Notes under the pieces: generated by a model | Seen by the model: only the letters and a program-made list of their open reading frames with translations | The model's database searches: none | What the model was told of the DNA's origin: nothing | Translations under genes and position numbers: made by a program | Part shown: piece after piece, positions 33,094 to 62,347 of the stretch | How the letters are laid out: every line of letters starts with the position of its first letter | How positions within the stretch are numbered: position 1 is the first letter of the stretch | NCBI RefSeq assembly: GCF_000147815.2 | Contig: NC_015957.1 | Span: 9,052,001-9,116,000, forward strand | DNA length: 64,000 bases | Source: Streptomyces violaceusniger Tu 4113 | GTDB lineage: Bacteria > Actinomycetota > Actinomycetes > Streptomycetales > Streptomycetaceae | Direction of reading: 5' to 3'

Positions 33094-36000
33094 TCAGGAC
33101 AGCCAGTCCGCCACGGCCCGGGCCGTCGTCCCGGCGTGCTCCTCCATCATGGTGAAGTGGTTCCCCGGCACATCGAGCGCGGTGTGCGGGAGCTGCCAGT
33201 ACGACCGCCAGTCGCCGTCGCGGGACCAGTCGAAGAGCCGCTCCCCGGCCCGGACCAGCAGCGTCGGCGTCTTGACCTCCTTGGGCCGCCACTGGCCGAA
33301 CAGCCGGAAGTAGGCGCCCATGGCCAGCAGCCGGGTGTCGTCCACCGGCACCTGGCCGGCGCTGCGCTCGTCCATCCCGGCGCTCAGCCCGGGCTGGAGG
33401 GCCACGGCCGCGTCCCGGTCGTGCGAGTAGATGTCGAGCAGGACGACCGCGTCCGGGAAGACCCCGGTGCTCTCCAGCCGCGCGGCCACCTCATGGGCGA
33501 GCAGCCCGCCCGAGGAGTGGCCCAGCAGCACGAACGGCGCCCCGTCGGTCTCCCGCAGCACCGCCTCGGCCTGCGCCTCGATCACCGCCTCCGGGTTGGC
33601 CGGGAGCCGCTCCCCGGCGACGAAGCCGGGGTTGCCCAGCGCGAGGACGTCCCGGTGGCCGCGGAATCCGGCGGCGAACCGCGCGTACTGGTGCGGGCCG
33701 CCGATCGACAGGATCGAGGAGAAGCACACCAGCGCGGGCCCGGTCTCCCCGCGCGACAGCCGCACCAGCGCGGGCGCCTTGTCCAGCTCGGTGGCGCGTC
33801 CGAACGAGGGCCGGAACCGCGAGACGTCCATCAGCAGCCGGGTGAACTCCTCCTGCTTGCCGAGCTGTCCGGCCTCCCGCATCATCGCGCCGAACACGGC
33901 CGACGGCTCCGCGCCCGCCGCCTCCTCGCGCGCCGCGTCCGAGACCGCACCGCCCTCGGCGGCCACCGAACCGGCGAGCTGCGCGAGCAACTGCCGGCCG
34001 ACCAGCTCGGGCGTCGGGTGGTCGAACAGCAGCGTCGGGGCCAGCCGCAGCCCGCTCGCGGCGTTCAGCCGGTTGCGCAGCTCGACGGCGGTCAGCGAGT
34101 CGAAACCCTGCTCCAGGAAGCCACGCGTGGCCCCCACCGCCTCCGCGTCCGGGAAGCCGAGGACCGCGGCGGCCTGGCCGCGGACCAGGTCCAGCACGGC
34201 CTTCTCGCGCTCCGCCTCGGCCAGCCCGGCCAGCCGCCGCGCCAGCGAGGGGCCGCCCGTGTCGGCCGCACCGGCGGCGACGGTACGCCGCCGGGCCGGA
34301 GCCCGGACCAGCCCGCGGAACACGGCGGGCAGCCCACCCTCGGCGGCCTGCTCGCGCAGCGGCGCGGTGTCCAGGTGCAGCGGTACGAGCACCGCCTCAC
34401 CGCCGACCGTGCACGCCGTGTCGAACAGCTCCAGACCGTCCCGCGAGGACAGCGGCGCCATCCCGGAGCGCTCCATCCGGGCCACGTCCGCGTCCGCCAT
34501 CCCGCCGGTCATCGCACTGCGCTGCTCCCACAGGCCCCAGGCCAGCGAGAGCGCGGGCAGTCCGGCGGAGCGGCGGTGCGCGGCCAGGGCGTCCAGGAAG
34601 GTGTTGGCCGCCGCGTAGTTGGCCTGGCCCGGCGCGCCGAAGGTACCGGCGGCGGACGAGAACAGTACGAACGCGGAGAGGTCAAGATCGCGGGTCAGCT
34701 CGTGCAGATTGTGCGCCGCGGCCACCTTCGGCCGGAAGACCGTGTCGATCCGGTCCGGGGTGAGCGTGGGCAGCAGCCCGTCGTCCAGCACACCCGCGGT
34801 GTGCACGACGGCGGTGAGCGGATGCTCCGGATCCACCTCGGCCAGCAGCATCGACAGCGCCTCGCGGTCGGCCACATCGCAGGCCGCGACGCTCACCCGG
34901 GCGCCCAGCGCGGTCAGTTCGCCGACCAGCTCGGGCATCCCCGGGGCGCGCTGTCCGCGGCGGCTGTTGAGCAGCAGCTGCCGCACCCCGCGCTCGGCCA
35001 CCAGATGGCGGGCGAGCTGTCCGCCGAGGACACCGGTGGCGCCGGTGATCAGGACCGTGCCGTCCGGGTCGAATTCCGGGAGCCCCTGCGGCGCCCGGCC
35101 CTCGCTCTGCTGCTCCTCGTTCTGCTCCTGGGTGGCGACCCGGGCCAGCCGGGGCGCGTGCAGGGCGCCCGCGCGGACGGCGAGCTGCGGCTCCCCGCCG
35201 GTCACGGCCGCCGTCAGCAGATCGGCCGAGGTCTCCTCACCGTCCAGGTCGAGCAGCAGGAAACGGTCCGGGTTCTCGGTCTGGGCGGTGCGGATCAGGC
35301 CCCATACGGCCGACCGCGGCAGGTCGTGCACCTCGGCCTCCGGGGACGTGGCGACCGCGCGCCGGGTGACGAACGCCAGCCGCGCCCCGGCGAGGCCCTC
35401 CTCCGCGAGCCACGACAGCGCGCTGTCCAGCGCGGCGTGCGTGGCCAGCCGGGCGCCCTCCGCCACATCGCCGCCCCCGGCGGGGCCGGTGTGCGGGAGG
35501 AGGACGACGTCCGGCCGGGGGCTGCCCGAGGCCACCACGGCCGCGAGTTCGGCCAGGTCGGCGAAGACGGCGCAGTCGGCACCGGCGGACTCCAGCGCGG
35601 CGACGAGCCCGAGGGCGTCCGTGCCCTGCGCGGCGTCCTGGCCGGCGCTGTTCGCCGCGTCCAGGCCGGCGCTGTTCGCCGTGTCCAGGCCGGTGCTGTT
35701 CGCCGTGTCCAGGCCGGTGCTGTTCGCGGCATCCTGGCCGACCAGGGCCCAGCGGAGGGTCCCGGGCGCCGCCGAAGGCGCCGGGACCGGCGCCCACTCC
35801 AGCCGGAACAGCGAGTCGTGGTAGGTCACCTGGGCCGCGCGCAGTTGCTCCGGGGCGATACGCCGCAGCACCAGGGAGTCCACCGACGCGACCGCGCCGC
35901 CGTTCTCGTCCGCGACGGTGAGGGCCACCGTGTCCGGCCCGGCCGGGGCGATCCGTACGCGCAGCGCCGTGGCGCCCGCCGCGTGGAGGGTGACCCCGGT

Positions 36001-39000
36001 CCAGGAGAACGGCAGCCGGATCCCGTCGGCCTCGGCGCCCAGGAAGTCGCCGAGCGCGACCCCGTGCAGCGCGGCGTCCAGCAGCGCCGGATGCAGTCCG
36101 AACAGCGCGGCGTCGGCGTGCTGCCGCTGCTCCAGGCGCAGCTCGGCGAAGACCTCATCGCCGCGCCGCCAGGCGGCGTTGAGCCCCTGGAACGCCGGGC
36201 CGTAGCCTACGCCGCCCGCCGCGAACCGCTCGTAGAGGTCGTCCACGTCGAGGGCGACGGCCTCGGCGGGCGGCCATACGGACAGGTCGGCGCCGCCGTC
36301 CGTGGCGTCACCGGAGGCCAGGACACCGCCGGCGTGACGGATCCAGGGCTGGTCCGAGGCGTCGCCCCGGTCCGCGTCCGGCTCCGGGCGGGAGTAGACC
36401 TCCAGCGTCCGGCGGCCGCTCGCGTCGGGCGCGCCGACGGTCAGCCGGAGCTGGATCCCGCCCCGGCCGGGCAGGATCAGCGGCGCTTCGAGGGTCAGCT
36501 CCTCCAGCAGATCGCAGCCGACCTGGTCACCGGCGCGGATCGCCAGTTCCACGAAGGCCGTCCCCGGCAGCAGCGCGGTGCCGGACACGGCGTGGTCGGC
36601 GAGCCAGGGGTGGGTCTGGAGGGAGAGCCGCCCGGTGAGCAGGAAGCCGTCGGAGTCGGGCAGTTCGACGGCGGCGCCCAGCAGCGGATGCCCGGCGGCG
36701 CCAAGCCCGGCGGAGGCGACATCGCCCACCGCGAGCGGGACCTCGATCCAGTAGCGCTCGTGCTGGAAGGCGTACGTGGGCAGCTCGACGCGCTCCGCGC
36801 CCGTACCGTCGAACACCGCCTCCCAGTCCACGCCGACGCCACGTGTCCATGCCTCGCCAAGAGAGGCCCAGAAGCGGTCCACACCGCCCTCGTCACGGCG
36901 CAGCGAACCGATCGCGGCAGCCTCACGGCCCGCGCTCTCGGCGGTCTCCTGCACACCCATCGTGAGCACGGGGTGGGCGCTGGACTCGATGAAGGCACCG
37001 AAGCCCTCGTCCAGCAGACGGCGGACCGCACCCTCCAATTCGACGGTACGGCGGAGGTTGGTGAACCAGTACTCCGCGTCCAGCTCCGGACCCTCGACCC
37101 ACTCCCCCGTCACCGTCGACAAGAACGGCACCTCGGCCGTCCTGGGCTCCACGGGAGCCAGCAACTCCAGCAGCTCCTCACGGAGCAACTCGACCTGCGC
37201 GGAGTGCGAGGCGTAATCCACCGGCACCCGGCGCGCCCGCACCTCATCGGCCTCACAGGAGGCCAACAGCTCGTCCAGCGCCTCCGGCTCACCCGAAACC
37301 ACCGCCGAGGAGGGACCGTTGACGGCCGCGACGGAGATGCGCTCCTCGCCCCACGCCGCGATCCGCTCCCGTACATCCGCCACCGGCAGCGCCACCGACA
37401 CCATGCCGCCCTCACCCGCCAGCACCCGGCCAATCGCCTGACTCCGCAACGCCACCACACGCGCCGCATCCTGAAGCGACAGGATTCCGGCCACACAGGC
37501 GGCGGCGATCTCACCCTGCGAGTGGCCGACCACAGCCGCCGGCCGAACCCCCAGCGAACGCCACAGCTCCGCGAGCGAAACCATCACCGCGAACAGCACC
37601 GGCTGAACCACGTCCACGCGCTCCAGCGACGGCGCACCCTCGGCGCCCCGCAGCACCTCCACCAACGACCAGTCGGTGAACTCCGCCAGCGCCGCGGCGC
37701 ATTCGTGGATACGGGCCGCGAAGACGGGCGAGGCGTCCATCAGCCCCACCGCCATACCGGTCCACTGCGACCCCTGCCCCGGAAACACGAACGCCGTCCG
37801 GCCGGCCGTTCCGGTGCCCTGGACCAGCTCGGCCACCGCCTCGCCCCGGGCGAGCGCCGTCAGAGCGCGGATGAAGTCGTCGCGGTCCGTGCCGAGCAGC
37901 ACCGCGCGCTGGTCGTGGACGGCGCGGGTGGTGGCCAGGGAGTAGCCGACGTCGGCCGGGCGCAGGCCCGGGTCCGTGTCGAGGTGTGCCAGCAGCCGCT
38001 CGGCCTGGGCGCCCAGCGCCGCCTCGCTCCTGCCGGACAGGATCCACGGCAGCACACCGGGCTCGGGCGGGGCGTCGGCGGGCGTGGGCCGCTCCGCCGG
38101 GGCCTGCTCGATGATGGTGTGCGCGTTGGTGCCGCTGATGCCGAACGAGGACACCGCGGCCCGGCGCGGACGGCCGGTCTCCGGCCACTCCACCTGCTCG
38201 GTGAGCAGCGACACCGCGCCCGCCGTCCAGTCCACGTGCGGCGAGGGCTCGTCCACATGCAGGGTCCTGGGCAGGACGCCGTGCTCGATGGCCTTGACCA
38301 TCTTGATGATTCCGGCGACACCGGCCGCGGCCTGGGTGTGGCCGAAGTTGGACTTCACCGAGCCGAGCCAGAGCGGCTCGTCCTCGGTCCGCTCCTGGCC
38401 GTAGGTGGCCAGCAGTGCCTGGGCCTCGATCGGGTCGCCCAGCGTCGTACCGGTGCCGTGTGCTTCGACGACGTCCACCTCTGCGGCGGACAGCCGGGCG
38501 TTGGCGAGGGCCTGGCGGATGACGCGCTGCTGGGACGGGCCGTTGGGCGCGGTGAGGCCGTTGGAGGCGCCGTCCTGGTTGATGGCCGAGCCACGGACGA
38601 TCGCCAGCACCGGATGGCCGTTCTTGCGGGCGTCCGACAGCCGCTCCACCAACAGCATGCCCACACCCTCGCCCCAGGCCGTACCGTCAGCGGCGGCGGC
38701 GAAGGGCTTGCAGCGGCCGTCGGTCGCGAGGCCGCGCTGCTTGCTGAAGGCCACGAAGGTGCCGGGGGTGGCCATCACGGTCACACCGCCCGCGAGCGCG
38801 AGCGAGCATTCGCCGCTGCGCAGCGCCTGCACCGCCATGTGCAGGGTGACCAGCGACGACGAGCACGCCGTGTCGACGGTGACCGCCGGGCCCTCAAGAC
38901 CGAAGGTGTACGACACCCGGCCCGAGGCGACACTGCCGGAGCTGGCGGTGCCCATATAGCCCTCGAGGCCGTCGGGGGCGCGGTGCAGCAGGGTGCCGTA

Positions 39001-42000
39001 GTCGTTGTACATGACGCCGGTGTAGACACCGGTCCGGCTGCCGCGCACCGCCGCCGGGTCGATCCCGGCCCGCTCGAACGCCTCCCAGGACGTCTCCAGC
39101 AGCAGCCGCTGCTGCGGGTCCATGGCGAGCGCCTCACGCGGCGAGATCCCGAAGAAGACGGGGTCGAAGTGGTGGGCGTCGTGCAGGAATCCGCCGTTGC
39201 GGGCGTAGCTGGTGCCCTGCTGGTCGGGGTCGTCGTCGTAGAGCGACTCGATGTCCCAGCCGCGGTCGGTGGGCATGTCGGTGATGGCGTCCTCGCCATC
39301 CGTCACGAGCCGCCACAGGCCCTCGGGCGAGGTCACGCCGCCGGGGAAACGGCAGCTCATCGCCACGATGGCGATCGGCTCGTCGTCGCCTGCGGTGGCG
39401 GTGGCGACGGGTGCGGCGGCATCCTCCTGGCTGCCCTGTGCCTCGGCCCGCAGATACGCGGCGAGAGCGGCGGGGGTCGGGTAGTCGAAGATCAGCGTCG
39501 CGGGGAGCCGGACGCCACTGACCCCGGTCAGGCGGTTGCGCAGCTCGACGGCGGTGAGCGAGTCGAAGCCGACCTCGCTGAACGCGCGCTGCGGCTCGAC
39601 CGCGTCGGGCCCGGCGTAGCCGAGCACGGCCGCCACCTGCGTACGGACCACGCCGAGGACGATCGCCTCGGCCTCGGCGTCGGACACCCCGGCGAGCTGC
39701 TGGGCGAGCGCGCCGGACCGCGCCGCGGCGGCGGCCTGGGCCGCGCGGCGGGGCGGGACGCGGACCAGACCGCGGAAGAGGGGCGGCAGCATTCCGGCGC
39801 TCGCCTGTGCGCGGAGCGCGGTCAGGTCGAGGGGCATCGGCACGAGGAGGGCCTCGTCGGCGGTGTCCGCGAGGTCGAACAGCTCGCGGCCCCGGTCGGC
39901 GGTGATGGCGGCGACGCCACCGCGCCGCAGCCGGTCCAACTCCGCCTCGTCCAGCTCCCCGGCCATGCCGCCGGACTCGGCCCACAGGCCCCACGCGAGG
40001 GAGGTGGCGGGCAGGCCCTGCGCGGTGCGGTGCTGGGCGAGGGCGTCCAGGAAGGCGTTGGCCGCCGCGTAGTTGCCCTGGCCCGCACCGCCGAAGACAC
40101 CGGCGGCGGAGGAGAACAGGACGAACGCGGACAGGTCCGCGTCCTGGGTCAGCTCGTGGAGGTTCCACGCCGCGTCCACCTTCGGACGCGCCACGGTGGC
40201 CATGCGCTCGGGGGTGAGGGAGGCGATGACTCCGTCGTCCAGGACGCCTGCCGTGTGGATGACGGCGGTGAGGGGGTGGGCGGTGGGGATGGACGCGATG
40301 ACCTCCGCGAGGGCGGTGCGGTCGGCCGCGTCGCAGGCGGCCCAGTGTGCTTCTGCGCCCAACCCGGTGAGTTCTGCGGCGAGTTCGGGTGCGCCCGGCG
40401 CCTGGTCACCTCGGCGGCTGAGCAGGAGGAGGTGGCGTACGCCGCGCTCGGTCACCATGTGCTTGGCGAACAGCATGCCGAGGGTGCCGGTGGCGCCCGT
40501 GATCAGGACCGTGCCATTCGGGTTCCACTCGGGCGCCTGGTTCTCCGCCGCCACGGCGGCCCGTGCCAGGCGCGGGGCCCGGACCTCGCCGTTGCGCACC
40601 GCGACTTCCTGTTCGCCGGATGCCACAGCGGTCGGCAGTGCGTCCAGCGAATCCGCGTGGCCGTCCACGTCCACGAGCAGGATTCGGCCCGGGTTCTCCG
40701 ACTGGGCGGAGCGGATGAGGCCGCGGGCTGCGGCGTGGGCCAGGTCGGCGCCGGAGATGAGGACGACCAGGTAGGAGTCCGCGAAGCGGTCTTCGGCCAG
40801 GTAGGTCTGGAGGGTGGTGAGGGTTTGGGCGGTGGCTTGATGTGCGGCTTCGGTGGGGGTTTCCCCTATCCCGCCCCTTCCCGCAACCATGGGCTCCGCC
40901 CCTGGACCCCGGTCCTCAAGCGCCGGACGGGCTGGGTGTGCCGCGCCCGGGCCTTCAGGTGCCGCGCCCGTACGCCCTTCGGGCGTGTCCTCAATCGCCG
41001 GACGGGCTTGATTCGCCAGCGACACCACGATGTACTCCGGGGCCTTCCCCGCCGCCTCGGTCAGGGTGGCCAGGTCCGGGTAGATCTCAAGGCCCAGGGG
41101 ATTGGGGCCCACCGCCACCCAGCCGTCCGTGGATACCGGGCCGGACGGTGTCGGGACCGGCGTCCAGTCCACGCGGAACAAGGCGTCTGCCGCCTTGCCG
41201 TCGGAGCGGTCTGTGCTCAGTTGGTCCGGGGAGACCGTGCGCAGTGCGAGGCGTTCCACCTCGGCCACCGGGGCGCCGGTGACGTCGGCGAGTTGCAGGG
41301 ACACCGTGCCGTTTCCGGCCGGGGACAGCCGGACCCGTACGCTGTCCGCGCCCACCGAGTGGACGCGGACACCGGTCCAGGAGAAGGGCAGTCCGCCCTG
41401 GCCCGGGTTCTCGGTCAGGTCGCTGAGCCCGATGGTGTGCAGGACGGCGTCCAGCAGGGCCGGGTGCAGGCCGAAGACGGCGGCGCCGGGCTCGGCGTCC
41501 TCGGGGAGGGCGACCTCGGCGTAGACCTCGCCGTCGCCTCGCCAGGCGGCTCGCAGCCCCTGGAAGACGGGGCCGTAGCCGAAGCCCGCCTCGGCCAGGC
41601 CGTCGTAGAGGCCGTCAGTCTCGATGCGCTCGGTGCCCGCGGGCGGCCAGGCGCTCAGGTCGAACGTCGGGGCCGCGGGCGCGCTCTCCGCGAGCACACC
41701 GGTGGCGTGCCGCAGCCACGGCTCGTCGTCTCCGGCCTCGTCGGGGCGGGAGTGGAGGGCGAGGGTGCGGCGGCCGGTGTCGTCCTGGGCGCCCACGGCG
41801 ATCTGGAGTCGGACCCCGCCCCGTTCGGGCAGGATCAGCGGGGCCTCCAGGGTGAGTTCCTCGACCAGGTCGCAGCCGGCCTGCTCACCGGCGCGCACGG
41901 CCAGTTCCACGAACGCGGTGCCGGGCAGCAGCACCGCGCCCATGACGGCGTGGTCGGCCAGCCACGGGTGGGTGTCCAGCGCAAGCCGCCCGGTGAACAG

Positions 42001-44868
42001 GAAGCCCTCCGCGTCGGCCAGGGACACGGCCGTGCCGAGCAGCGGGTGGTCGGCGGTGCCGAGGCCGAACGAGGTCACGTCGCCGTAGGCGGTGCCCGCG
42101 TCCAGCCAGTAGTGCTCGCGCTGGAAGGCGTAGGTGGGCAGTTCGACGCGCTCGGCGCCGGTCCCCGCGTAGTAGGCCTCCCAGTCGGGGGCCGTGCCCC
42201 GGGTGTGCAGGGTGGCCAGGGCGGTGGTCAGGGTCTCGGCCTCGGGGCGGTCCTTGCGCAGCGCGGCGGCGAACGCCACGTGCTCGGATTCGCCCGCCAG
42301 GCACTCCTGGCCGAGCGCGGACAGCACCCCGTCCGGGCCGAGCTCGAGGTAGGTGGTGACGCCCTGCGCCTCCATCGCGCGCATGCCGTCGAGGAAGCGC
42401 ACGGCCTCGCGGACATGGCGGACCCAGAAGTCGGCGGTGGCGATGTCCGCGGCGGGCGCTGTGCCGCCGGTCAGGTTGGAGACCACCGGGATCTTCGGGG
42501 CCTCGTACGTCAGGCTCTCGGCGACCTTGCGGAACGCCTCCAGCATCGGGTCCATCAGCGGCGAGTGGAAGGCGTGGCTGACGGTGAGCCGCCTGGTCTT
42601 ACGGCCCTGGGCCTCGAAGCCTTCCGCGATCTCCACGGCCGCGTCCTCGTCACCGGCGATGACGACCGACGTCGGGCCGTTGAGCGCGGCGATCGAGACG
42701 CGCTCGGTCAGCAGCGGCGTCACCTCGTCCTCGGACGCCTGGACGGCGATCATCGCGCCGCCGCCCGGCAGCCGCTGCATCAGCCGGCCCCGGGCCGCCA
42801 CCAGCAGTGCGGCGGCGTCGAGCGAGAGCACCCCCGCGACATGGGCGGCGGCGATCTCGCCGATGGAGTGTCCGGAGACCACGTCCGGCTTCAGGCCCCA
42901 CGACTCGACGAGGCGGAACAGCGCCACCTCGATGGCGAACAGCGCGGGCTGGGTGAAGCCGGTCCGGTCCAGCGCGGCGGCGTAGTCCCCGAACAGCACG
43001 TCCTTCAGGGGCCGTTCGAGGCGCGGGTCGAGTGCGGCGCACACCGCGTCGAACGCCTCGGCGAACGCCGGGTAGGTCGCGTACAGCTCGCGCCCCATGC
43101 CGAGCCGCTGGCTGCCCTGGCCGGTGAAGAGGAACGCCAGCTTGCCCCGGGTCTCCACGCCCTGGACCACCCCGGCGGCGGGCTCACCGGAGGCGAGCGC
43201 GGCGAGGCGGTCGAGGAAGGTCGCGCGGTCACCGGCGATGACGGCGGCCCGGTTCTCCAGGGCGGCGCGGGTGGTGGCCAGGGAGTGGCCGAGGGACACC
43301 GGGTCCAGCTCGGGGCGTTCGGCCACGTAGCTGTGGAGCCGGGCGGCCTGGGCGCGCAGGGCGTCCTCGCCCTTGGCGGAGACCAGCCACGGCAGCAGCG
43401 GGAGGTCGCGGGGCTCCGCCGTCTCCTCGACGGGGGCCTCCGCGGGGGCCTCGTCGGCCTCCTCGCCGTCGGTCGCCTCCTCTGCCACCGGCGCCTGCTC
43501 GATGATCAGGTGGGCGTTGGTGCCGCTGATGCCGAACGAGGACACGGCGGCGCGCCGCGGACGGTCGGTCTCCGGCCACGGCCGGCCCTCGGTCAGCAGC
43601 GAGACGGCCCCGGCCGACCAGTCGATATGCGGCGACGGCTCGTCGATGTGCAGCGACTTCGGCACATAGCCGTGCTCGATGGCCTTGACCATCTTGATGA
43701 TCCCGGCGACACCGGCGGCGGCCTGGGTGTGGCCGACGTTGGACTTGATGGAGCCCAGCAGCAGCGGCCGCTCCTCGCTCTTCTCCTTGCCGTAGGTGGC
43801 CAGCAGCGCCTGCGCCTCGATCGGGTCGCCGAGTGTCGTGCCGGTGCCGTGTGCCTCGACCACGTCGATCTGGTCGGCGGTCAGCCGGGCGCTGGCGAGC
43901 GCCTGGCGGATGACGCGCTGCTGGGACGGGCCGTTGGGCGCCGTCAGGCCGTTGGACGCGCCGTCCTGGTTGATCGCGGAACCACGGACGACGGCCAGCA
44001 CCCGGTGGCCGTGTCTGCGGGCGTCCGACAGCCGCTCCACCAGCAGCATGCCCGCGCCCTCGGACCAGCCGGTGCCGTCCGCCGACGCCGCGAAGGACTT
44101 GCAGCGGCCGTCGAAGGACAGCCCGCGCTGGCGGCTGAACTCGGTGAAGGTGCCGGGCGTCGACATCACGGTCACACCGCCCGCGAGCGCCAGTGAGCAT
44201 TCGCCGTTGCGCAGCGCCTGCATGGCCAGATGCAGGGTCACCAGCGACGAGGAGCACGCCGTGTCGACGGTGAGCGCGGGGCCCTCCAGGCCGAAGGTGT
44301 ACGCCACCCGGCCGGAGGCGATGCTGCTGGAGCCGCCGGTGCCGAGATAGCCCTCGACACCGGGCGGCACGGCGCGCAGCCGCGAGGCGTAGTCGTGGTA
44401 CATGACGCCCGCGAAGACACCGGTACGGGTGCCGCGTACGGAGGTGGCGTCGATGCCCGCCCGCTCGAACACCTCCCAGGTGGTCTCCAGCAGCAGCCGC
44501 TGCTGGGGGTCCATCGCGAGGGCCTCGCGCGGATTGATGCCGAAGAACGCCGGGTCGAAGTAGTTGGCGTCGTGGAGGAAACCGCCCTCCCGGACATAGC
44601 TCGTGCCCGCGCCGTCCGGATTGTCGTCGAAGAGCCGCCCGATGTCCCAGCCGCGGTCGGTGGGGAACTCGGAAATGCCGTCCCCGCCCTCGGACACCAG
44701 CCGCCACAGGTCCTCGGGCGACTCGACGCCGCCCGGGTAGCGGCAGCTCATGCCGACGATCGCGATGGGCTCCTGGTCCTCCGACTCCACCTCCTGGAGG
44801 CGGCGGCGGGTCTCATGCAGGTCGGCGGTCACCCGCTTGAGAAAGTAGCGGAGCTTTTCCTCATTCAT
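33094..44868 (-). CDS. Modular type I PKS, terminal two modules plus thioesterase
   Basis: 3924 residues. N-terminal docking coil (about 1-30). Module 1: KS (Cys near 205), malonyl AT (GHSIGE Ser near 668; HAFH near 766), DH (HxxxGxxxxP near 972, D-x-x-x-H near 1140), KR (GATGTLG near 1458, intact Ser and Tyr near 1600, LDD = B-type), ACP (Ser near 1770). Module 2: KS (Cys near 2002), AT of methylmalonyl type (GHSQGE near 2449; YASH near 2554), DH, KR (intact), ACP (near 3591). The TE has GHSSGG near 3786 and GNHF near 3904. The last extender therefore brings an alpha-methyl group, and each module is expected to leave an E-type double bond. The TE releases the chain as acid or lactone. GAGAGGG precedes the ATG. 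It accepts the chain from the protein encoded at 44931-62291. Confidence 0.95.
35641..35736 (-). repeat. 24-bp tandem repeat inside PKS module
   Basis: Four near-perfect 24-base units (35641, 35665, 35689, 35713) with a fifth partial one. They encode an eight-residue repeat of the type LDTANSTG in the structural KR subdomain of the last module (about residues 3044-3076). The other modules lack it. Confidence 0.9.
40850..41012 (-). repeat. In-frame Streptomyces interspersed repeat in KR linker (terminal protein, module 1)
   Basis: About 160 bases inserted between the structural and catalytic parts of KR. It contains two copies of the core GTCCTCAA-CGCCGGACGGGCT (about 40911-40932 and 40986-41008), with the GCTCCGCCCCTGGACCCC stem-like flank of the common intergenic Streptomyces repeat. 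It reads through in frame as about 55 residues rich in [13 protein letters not shown] units, with no stop. The same element is in the module at 46668-46901. Confidence 0.8.
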
Positions 44869-44930: not shown

Positions 44931-62291
<17,361 letters not shown>

Positions 62292-62347
62292 TGGAGTCTC
62301 ACCCATGCTTCTCGTCACAAACCTTGCGCCCGGGGACCTTCAGATCC

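Follow-up and report, generated by a model that had tools for sequence, protein, structure and literature searches.

An interspersed Streptomyces repeat of gene 3' ends has very probably entered, in frame, a loop of the structural ketoreductase (KR) subdomain, psiKR, of a polyketide synthase (PKS), and seems then to have spread between modules by gene conversion. The origin of the insert from an intergenic repeat is well supported. The coding repeat is also broader than a single PKS module: it is present in a second PKS gene, in CobB and in a double ABC ATPase.

Repeat-bearing loops in the PKS genes

The window, that is, the whole stretch of 64,000 nucleotides of Streptomyces violaceusniger Tu 4113 that we analysed, contains two PKS genes with inserts (Table 1). 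The original prediction had recognised repeat words in module A1, and they are present as claimed: GGGCTCCGCCCCTGGACCCCG is found exactly at 40891-40911, within the insert, together with exact copies of the core GTCCTCAANCGCCGGACGGGCT. The insert is also, as predicted, in frame and stop-free within the PKS gene at 33094-44868 on the minus strand. Read on the plus strand, it consists of two tandem units placed head-to-tail. The claim of about 55 added residues was right about an extra loop and too high in size, the net gain being about 45 residues (58 versus a median of 13 in insert-free psiKR loops). The site was misplaced: instead of separating the structural and catalytic KR parts, the insert lies inside psiKR, between a beta strand and a helix.

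Table 1. Positions of the insert-bearing PKS genes, their loops and the repeat units within them (window coordinates)
Feature	Position	Strand	Remark
PKS gene A, two modules and thioesterase, insert in first module	33094..44868	-	
Insert-bearing psiKR loop, module A1, 58 residues	40849..41022	-	
A1 repeat unit, arm 1: leader (TTTCCCC..CGCCCCTTCCCG..GGGCTCCGCCCCTGGACCCCG) and core	40860..40933	+	architecture as in intergenic copies
A1 core copy 1, exact GTCCTCAANCGCCGGACGGGCT	40912..40933	+	
A1 repeat unit, arm 2: GTACGCCCTTCGGGCGT stem, core and TTGATT, same direction as arm 1	40970..41013	+	
A1 core copy 2, exact GTCCTCAANCGCCGGACGGGCT	40987..41008	+	
PKS gene B, three modules, second insert in last module	44931..62318	-	
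Insert-bearing psiKR loop, module B3, 89 residues, three cores	46656..46922	-	
B3 repeat unit, arm 1 (leader and core)	46674..46749	+	
B3 core copy, exact	46725..46746	+	
B3 core copy, degenerate, 2 mismatches	46788..46809	+	
B3 core copy, exact, arm-2 stem upstream	46872..46893	+	

Across leader, core and stem, the PKS copies correspond to copies that lie between genes in this genome. The A1 and B3 inserts have a GC3 of 0.65 and 0.69 versus 0.93 in both PKS genes, and a GC2 of 0.68-0.69 versus 0.52-0.53. This codon-position composition points to a non-coding origin of the inserts and, with the shared architecture, bears out the claim that a non-coding repeat had turned into coding sequence. 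The 20 cores of this cluster and of the orthologous cluster in another genome, G095, all use the ARPA.ED frame, two of them with substituted residues, and the inserts have recurring ends, QARPA on one side and GRGG.GE on the other. Adjacent core pairs within the PKS copies are in direct orientation, and three PKS repeat stretches fold like their shuffles (z of -0.36, -0.03 and 0.18).

Structure prediction with AlphaFold2, run on an alignment of 26 sequences, placed the insert between a strand (residues 58-62) and a helix (117-137). The insert itself, residues 68-113, fell below a pLDDT of 50, and the fold was otherwise mostly confident. The insert is thus predicted to form a disordered beta-alpha loop. 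The predicted fold matches solved PKS ketoreductases; by sequence, the alignments of the three best-scoring solved chains begin just after the insert, and those of some others span it.

Using a psiKR profile built from eight insert-free modules, we detected 388 domains in 138 proteins, comprising 120 homologs (the best 120 of 1297 proteins found, with 1749 candidates scored) and 18 translated genes of the S. violaceusniger and G095 clusters. Insert-free loops have a median length of 13 residues, with a 5-95% range of 8-16 (309 measured). The repeat peptide is present in 67 of the 388 domains, a proportion in which carriers are over-represented because the homolog query itself contained the insert. 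It is therefore neither an old linker of all homologous modules nor, as had been supposed, the product of one local insertion. The 67 domains lie in 60 proteins, 51 of them homologs and nine of them genes of the two clusters; the initial flags numbered 68 domains in 61 proteins, from which P0104 was dropped as a false match to a loose motif. Carrier loops span 27 to 125 residues among those measured, a few alignment splits aside: eight flagged loops, including A1 of the window, received no automatic length, and the three short ones in P0012, P0018 and P0053 were taken as splits. By their source names the 51 carrier homologs are from Streptomyces, except for one JGI sequence that bears no species name. 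The carrier species include violaceusniger, malaysiensis, antimycoticus, iranensis, javensis and himastatinicus, which we take to belong to the Streptomyces violaceusniger group. A scan of named genomes, covering at least 597 stretches from 50 relatives, recovered at least 17 in-frame PKS loci (L087-L103) in nine species, at least eight PKS loci matching outside the insert, at least 23 intergenic repeat matches and at least two other genes.

Two further features of the PKS genes were observed. A tandem low-complexity expansion occupies the start of the A2 psiKR (window 35635-35733) and is missing in the G095 ortholog. Antisense to the PKS gene, plus-strand window 43744-43818 matches the Rfam family ASpks (RF01782) with 68 bits; Rfam describes this family as a TB antisense sRNA.

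The repeat between genes

The 11.1 Mb genome of S. violaceusniger contains 63 core places with up to two mismatches, the PKS cluster included, and the reversed-pattern control gave none. The cores fall into two classes, GTCC...GGAC (G) and CTCC...GGAG (C), distinguished by a compensatory pair within the core. The exact G-class core is present in 78 of 121 genomes of the genus, with up to 225 copies per genome (reversed-pattern control 0), and the exact C-class core in 55 of the 121. The classes hardly mix: a combined pattern finds 498 copies in genomes G051 and G002, 496 of which belong to the pure classes. Outside the PKS cluster S. violaceusniger has eight exact G-class and 42 exact C-class copies, while the 20 cores of its PKS cluster and that of G095 belong to the G class. 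Despite this disparity between a G-class cluster and a mainly C-class genome, we do not claim that the cluster was acquired from elsewhere, because one founder spread by conversion explains the G-class cores equally well.

We inspected the genomic context of 148 copies located outside the cluster: 62 in S. violaceusniger, representing all of its places there, 20 in ten loci of G095, and 66 in 20 stretches of G051 (66 of the 68 exact copies in those stretches were counted). Genes were called with a purpose-written caller based on a home-made codon-usage model. Of these copies 142 are intergenic, and the other six just reach the end of a called gene; none of the 148, in these three genomes, lies deeper than 30 nt inside a gene. 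The core is therefore not confined to PKS genes, and the predicted status of a common intergenic Streptomyces repeat is confirmed. The 95 repeat loci lie between convergent genes in 45 cases, co-directional genes in 49 and divergent genes in one, versus 71 divergent gaps among 311 background gaps of at least 100 bp (Fisher p 2e-8). Six called genes (L029, L031, L034, L043, L045 and L054) end within the repeat core, the one at L043 scoring weakly; read in antisense, the core has a TGA stop in one frame.

Neighbouring intergenic copies form 50 pairs, 37 converging and 13 direct. All of the direct pairs are in S. violaceusniger, which has only two converging ones. Three inverted pairs from intergenic loci, selected for this arrangement, fold into hairpins of -102 to -113 kcal/mol (z of -8 to -10). 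Because of these strong hairpins and the positions at gene ends, the intergenic copies look like 3'-end, terminator-like elements that may act in termination. A report of S. coelicolor transcript data mentions short transcripts at palindromes, many of them in 3' UTRs (PMC4681348), and in another paper part of the core forms a stretch of a primer whose name refers to the C terminus of S. coelicolor adpA (PMC10771470). Rfam gave no matches at the gathering threshold across seven intergenic repeat loci, and nothing over the A1 or B3 inserts at E values up to 1.

Insertion into a megasynthase without loss of frame had been described as rarely noted. That the captured copy is free of stops is not very surprising, since 82 intergenic copies of 94 nt are open in two to five of the six frames.

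Variation between modules and routes of spread

Comparison with the related cluster confirmed that the insert is variable. The S. violaceusniger cluster has four insert-bearing modules and the orthologous G095 cluster seven; modules D2, D3 and H1 lack the insert in S. violaceusniger and carry it in G095. For comparisons of identity between module pairs and orthologs, the A1 insert was taken as 57 residues. Among the 55 pairings of insert-bearing modules, 43 show a higher identity in the insert than in either flank; in 11 the insert exceeds one flank only, and in one pair neither. The insert of A1 is 95% identical to that of module G in the same genome, with flanks of 63 and 72%, and is closer to it than to that of its own ortholog (89%). 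This high identity between modules could also reflect independent captures of a conserved repeat.

The flanks suggest spread by gene conversion between modules. Twelve of the 15 orthologous pairs have flank identities of 84-95%. At D2 the flanks of G095 are only 72 and 81% identical to those of S. violaceusniger, but 98 and 95% identical to those of another insert-bearing G095 module; at D3 the corresponding values are 67 and 78% versus 89 and 94%. Such flanks, unlike the ortholog and like other insert-bearing modules of G095, are the pattern expected from gene conversion. The A1 orthologs have low flanks too (78 and 82%). Conversion between PKS modules was proposed earlier, in a study of repeated DNA in these genes (PMC9899208). 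Around H1 the flanks, taken as 300 nt to the left and 900 nt to the right, stay ortholog-like (87 and 86%), so that conversion there would have been limited to a short tract, and an independent insertion is possible at this module. We found no clean empty site showing a target duplication among the orthologous modules of the two genomes, and the founding insertion is for this reason one that we infer.

Alternatively, a repeat that is still mobile might have inserted into this psiKR loop once per module, and conversion would have played no part. Unit number and spacer differ between modules and between orthologs, H1 differs between the two genomes within ortholog-like flanks, and the repeat has also entered linkers of two unrelated genes, all of which would fit separate insertions. 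Yet orientation and frame are the same in every PKS core of the two clusters, the insert ends recur, and the G095 pairs D1/D2 and D3/G are nearly identical beyond the insert. In addition, the two Y1 transposase genes of S. violaceusniger (PF01797, the RAYT type) both lie at least 178 kb from the nearest listed copy. Separate insertions are thus a quite improbable account of the PKS copies as a whole. It is close to inconceivable that the inserts are ordinary low-complexity linkers that resemble the repeat by chance or composition. A high G+C content does make such words less improbable, and low complexity is also seen in other linkers of these PKSs, but the window contains five core matches with up to three mismatches versus a mean of 0.01 in 100 shuffles, the reversed pattern is absent from all 121 genomes, and the match extends from the leader through the core to the stem.

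A different question is whether the loop is kept for a selected function, such as docking, spacing, mRNA structure or a handle for recombination. Its occurrence in 60 proteins with the frame kept open would agree with this. Against it, the length of the loop varies (27 to 125 residues among the carriers measured), the loop is missing from orthologous modules and is predicted to be disordered, and its composition is repeat-like rather than codon-adapted. We consider a selected function unlikely; the most economical and most likely reading is that of a tolerated, disordered spacer with a neutral or nearly neutral role in the enzyme.

Under the preferred reading of capture followed by conversion, the starting element would be a repeat at Streptomyces gene 3' ends, often an inverted pair forming a terminator-like hairpin. 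It would have entered, without loss of frame, a beta-alpha loop on the surface of psiKR in a giant PKS, within a module of the DH-KR type, where it would be read as a disordered loop rich in Ala, Pro, Gly and Glu. Copies may then have passed between modules through conversion of the psiKR-KR region, and recombination between direct repeats may have altered the number of units. We also considered a rule that coding copies lack hairpin-forming pairs, as all 28 adjacent coding pairs, taken as DNA, are direct, versus 13 direct and 37 converging intergenic pairs. The rule was dropped, because the PKS pairs are not independent and because the protein sequences P0126, P0127 and P0132 resemble sense-then-antisense pairs in one linker.

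Coding copies in unrelated genes and comparison with known repeats

In-frame copies are found in two gene families unrelated to PKSs; for the PKS, CobB and ABC families alike, the comparison covered a few genomes. In CobB of Actinacidiphila oryziradicis (L119) the coding repeat lies between CbiA and GATase_3 and is read as ARPAFED. For the genus, 41 genomes were searched and 40 matched; 38 readable loci (L137-L174) remained after we dropped a locus reading N and a gene split over two contigs. The CobB interdomain linker contains the core (up to three mismatches) in ten of the 38, in frame between the anchors in eight and out of frame in L149 and L174. These ten cores have the opposite orientation, PQTPDGL. 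Elsewhere in the same CobB loci the core was found in 2 of 700 stretches, and in 0 of 1950 mononucleotide shuffles. A double ABC ATPase of Streptomyces sp. ISL-96 (617 residues, L110:2158-4011) has two in-frame repeat units between its ATPase domains, and close relatives with the repeat peptide occur in ISL-100 and S. flavidovirens. Among nine further ABC genes, eight of the genus and one of another family (loci L182 and L185 being one gene), eight are without the core and one has a degenerate match. In S. violaceusniger itself no core was found in the CobB linker (L172) or the ABC linker (L180). One protein search returned five proteins at E values up to 0.01 among 47 candidates, all of them double ABC ATPases; a second returned three at E values up to 10 among 249 candidates, namely two CobB proteins and a weak match, P0131, with the repeat peptide at its N terminus. 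So few matches indicate that the repeat peptide is rare in proteins of that length.

The sites of the inserts, in ketoreductases and linkers, are permissive, and engineering work could exploit them as insertion points already in use in nature. In PKSs the repeat may, in addition, be a marker of recent exchange between modules, which bears on the evolution of these assembly lines. We found no description of this Streptomyces repeat in coding sequence in the open-access literature, outside of which most subscription papers fall.

Several known systems share features with the repeat. A strong hairpin downstream of genes, seen here in the three folded pairs and in the intergenic positions, is a feature of intrinsic terminators. 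REPs are short repeats at gene 3' ends, often inverted pairs that form stable hairpins. The repeat resembles REP/BIME elements in its 3'-end position and in inverted pairs with strong hairpins, as judged from the three pairs folded, and differs from them in being a mosaic with a leader. The REP-like character that had been proposed thus holds for position and hairpin and fails for RAYT: identity with a REP/RAYT system was rejected, as transposase linkage is absent in the S. violaceusniger genome. Bacterial MITEs such as Correia/NEMIS and ERIC are small, non-autonomous and in some cases fused in frame to other genes (PMC2229807), and the Streptomyces repeat may be like them in these respects. 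GRINS are described as repeated DNA in PKS genes with conversion between modules and intense nucleotide skew (PMC9899208). Repeated DNA inside PKS genes and intermodular conversion are common ground, but the A1 and B3 inserts derive from an intergenic repeat. GRINS identity was rejected, since by the thresholds that we set there is no sustained skew over the inserts: B3 has none (GC skew 0.05, TA skew 0.04) and A1 has TA skew only (GC 0.11, TA -0.36). Elsewhere in gene A, window 37278-37548 has a sustained GC skew of 0.27 and TA skew of 0.35 and is GRINS-like by the same kind of thresholds.

The closest described precedent is the Rickettsia palindromic elements (RPEs), with their Wolbachia counterparts, in which an intergenic repeat is also found in frame in protein genes. 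Like protein-coding palindromic repeats, the Streptomyces repeat has many intergenic copies as well as in-frame copies in unrelated genes (PKS, CobB and double ABC ATPase). Work on RPEs reports intragenic copies in 19 reading frames, and a gmk product that bears an RPE and is translated and active, with changed substrate affinity (PMC2229807). The two repeats differ in sequence, structure and host phylum, and unlike RPEs the Streptomyces repeat has its in-gene copies in PKS loops and two interdomain linkers, the PKS copies having seemingly spread by conversion. With it, the change of non-coding repeat DNA into part of an enzyme can be traced in a second bacterial phylum. As a tentative extension, which we hold to be possible though doubtful, the repeat might be the Streptomycetaceae counterpart of RPEs: a terminator-like repeat that recurrently becomes a linker of multidomain proteins and that, in giant PKSs, serves as a homologous handle promoting conversion or shuffling of the KR region between modules.
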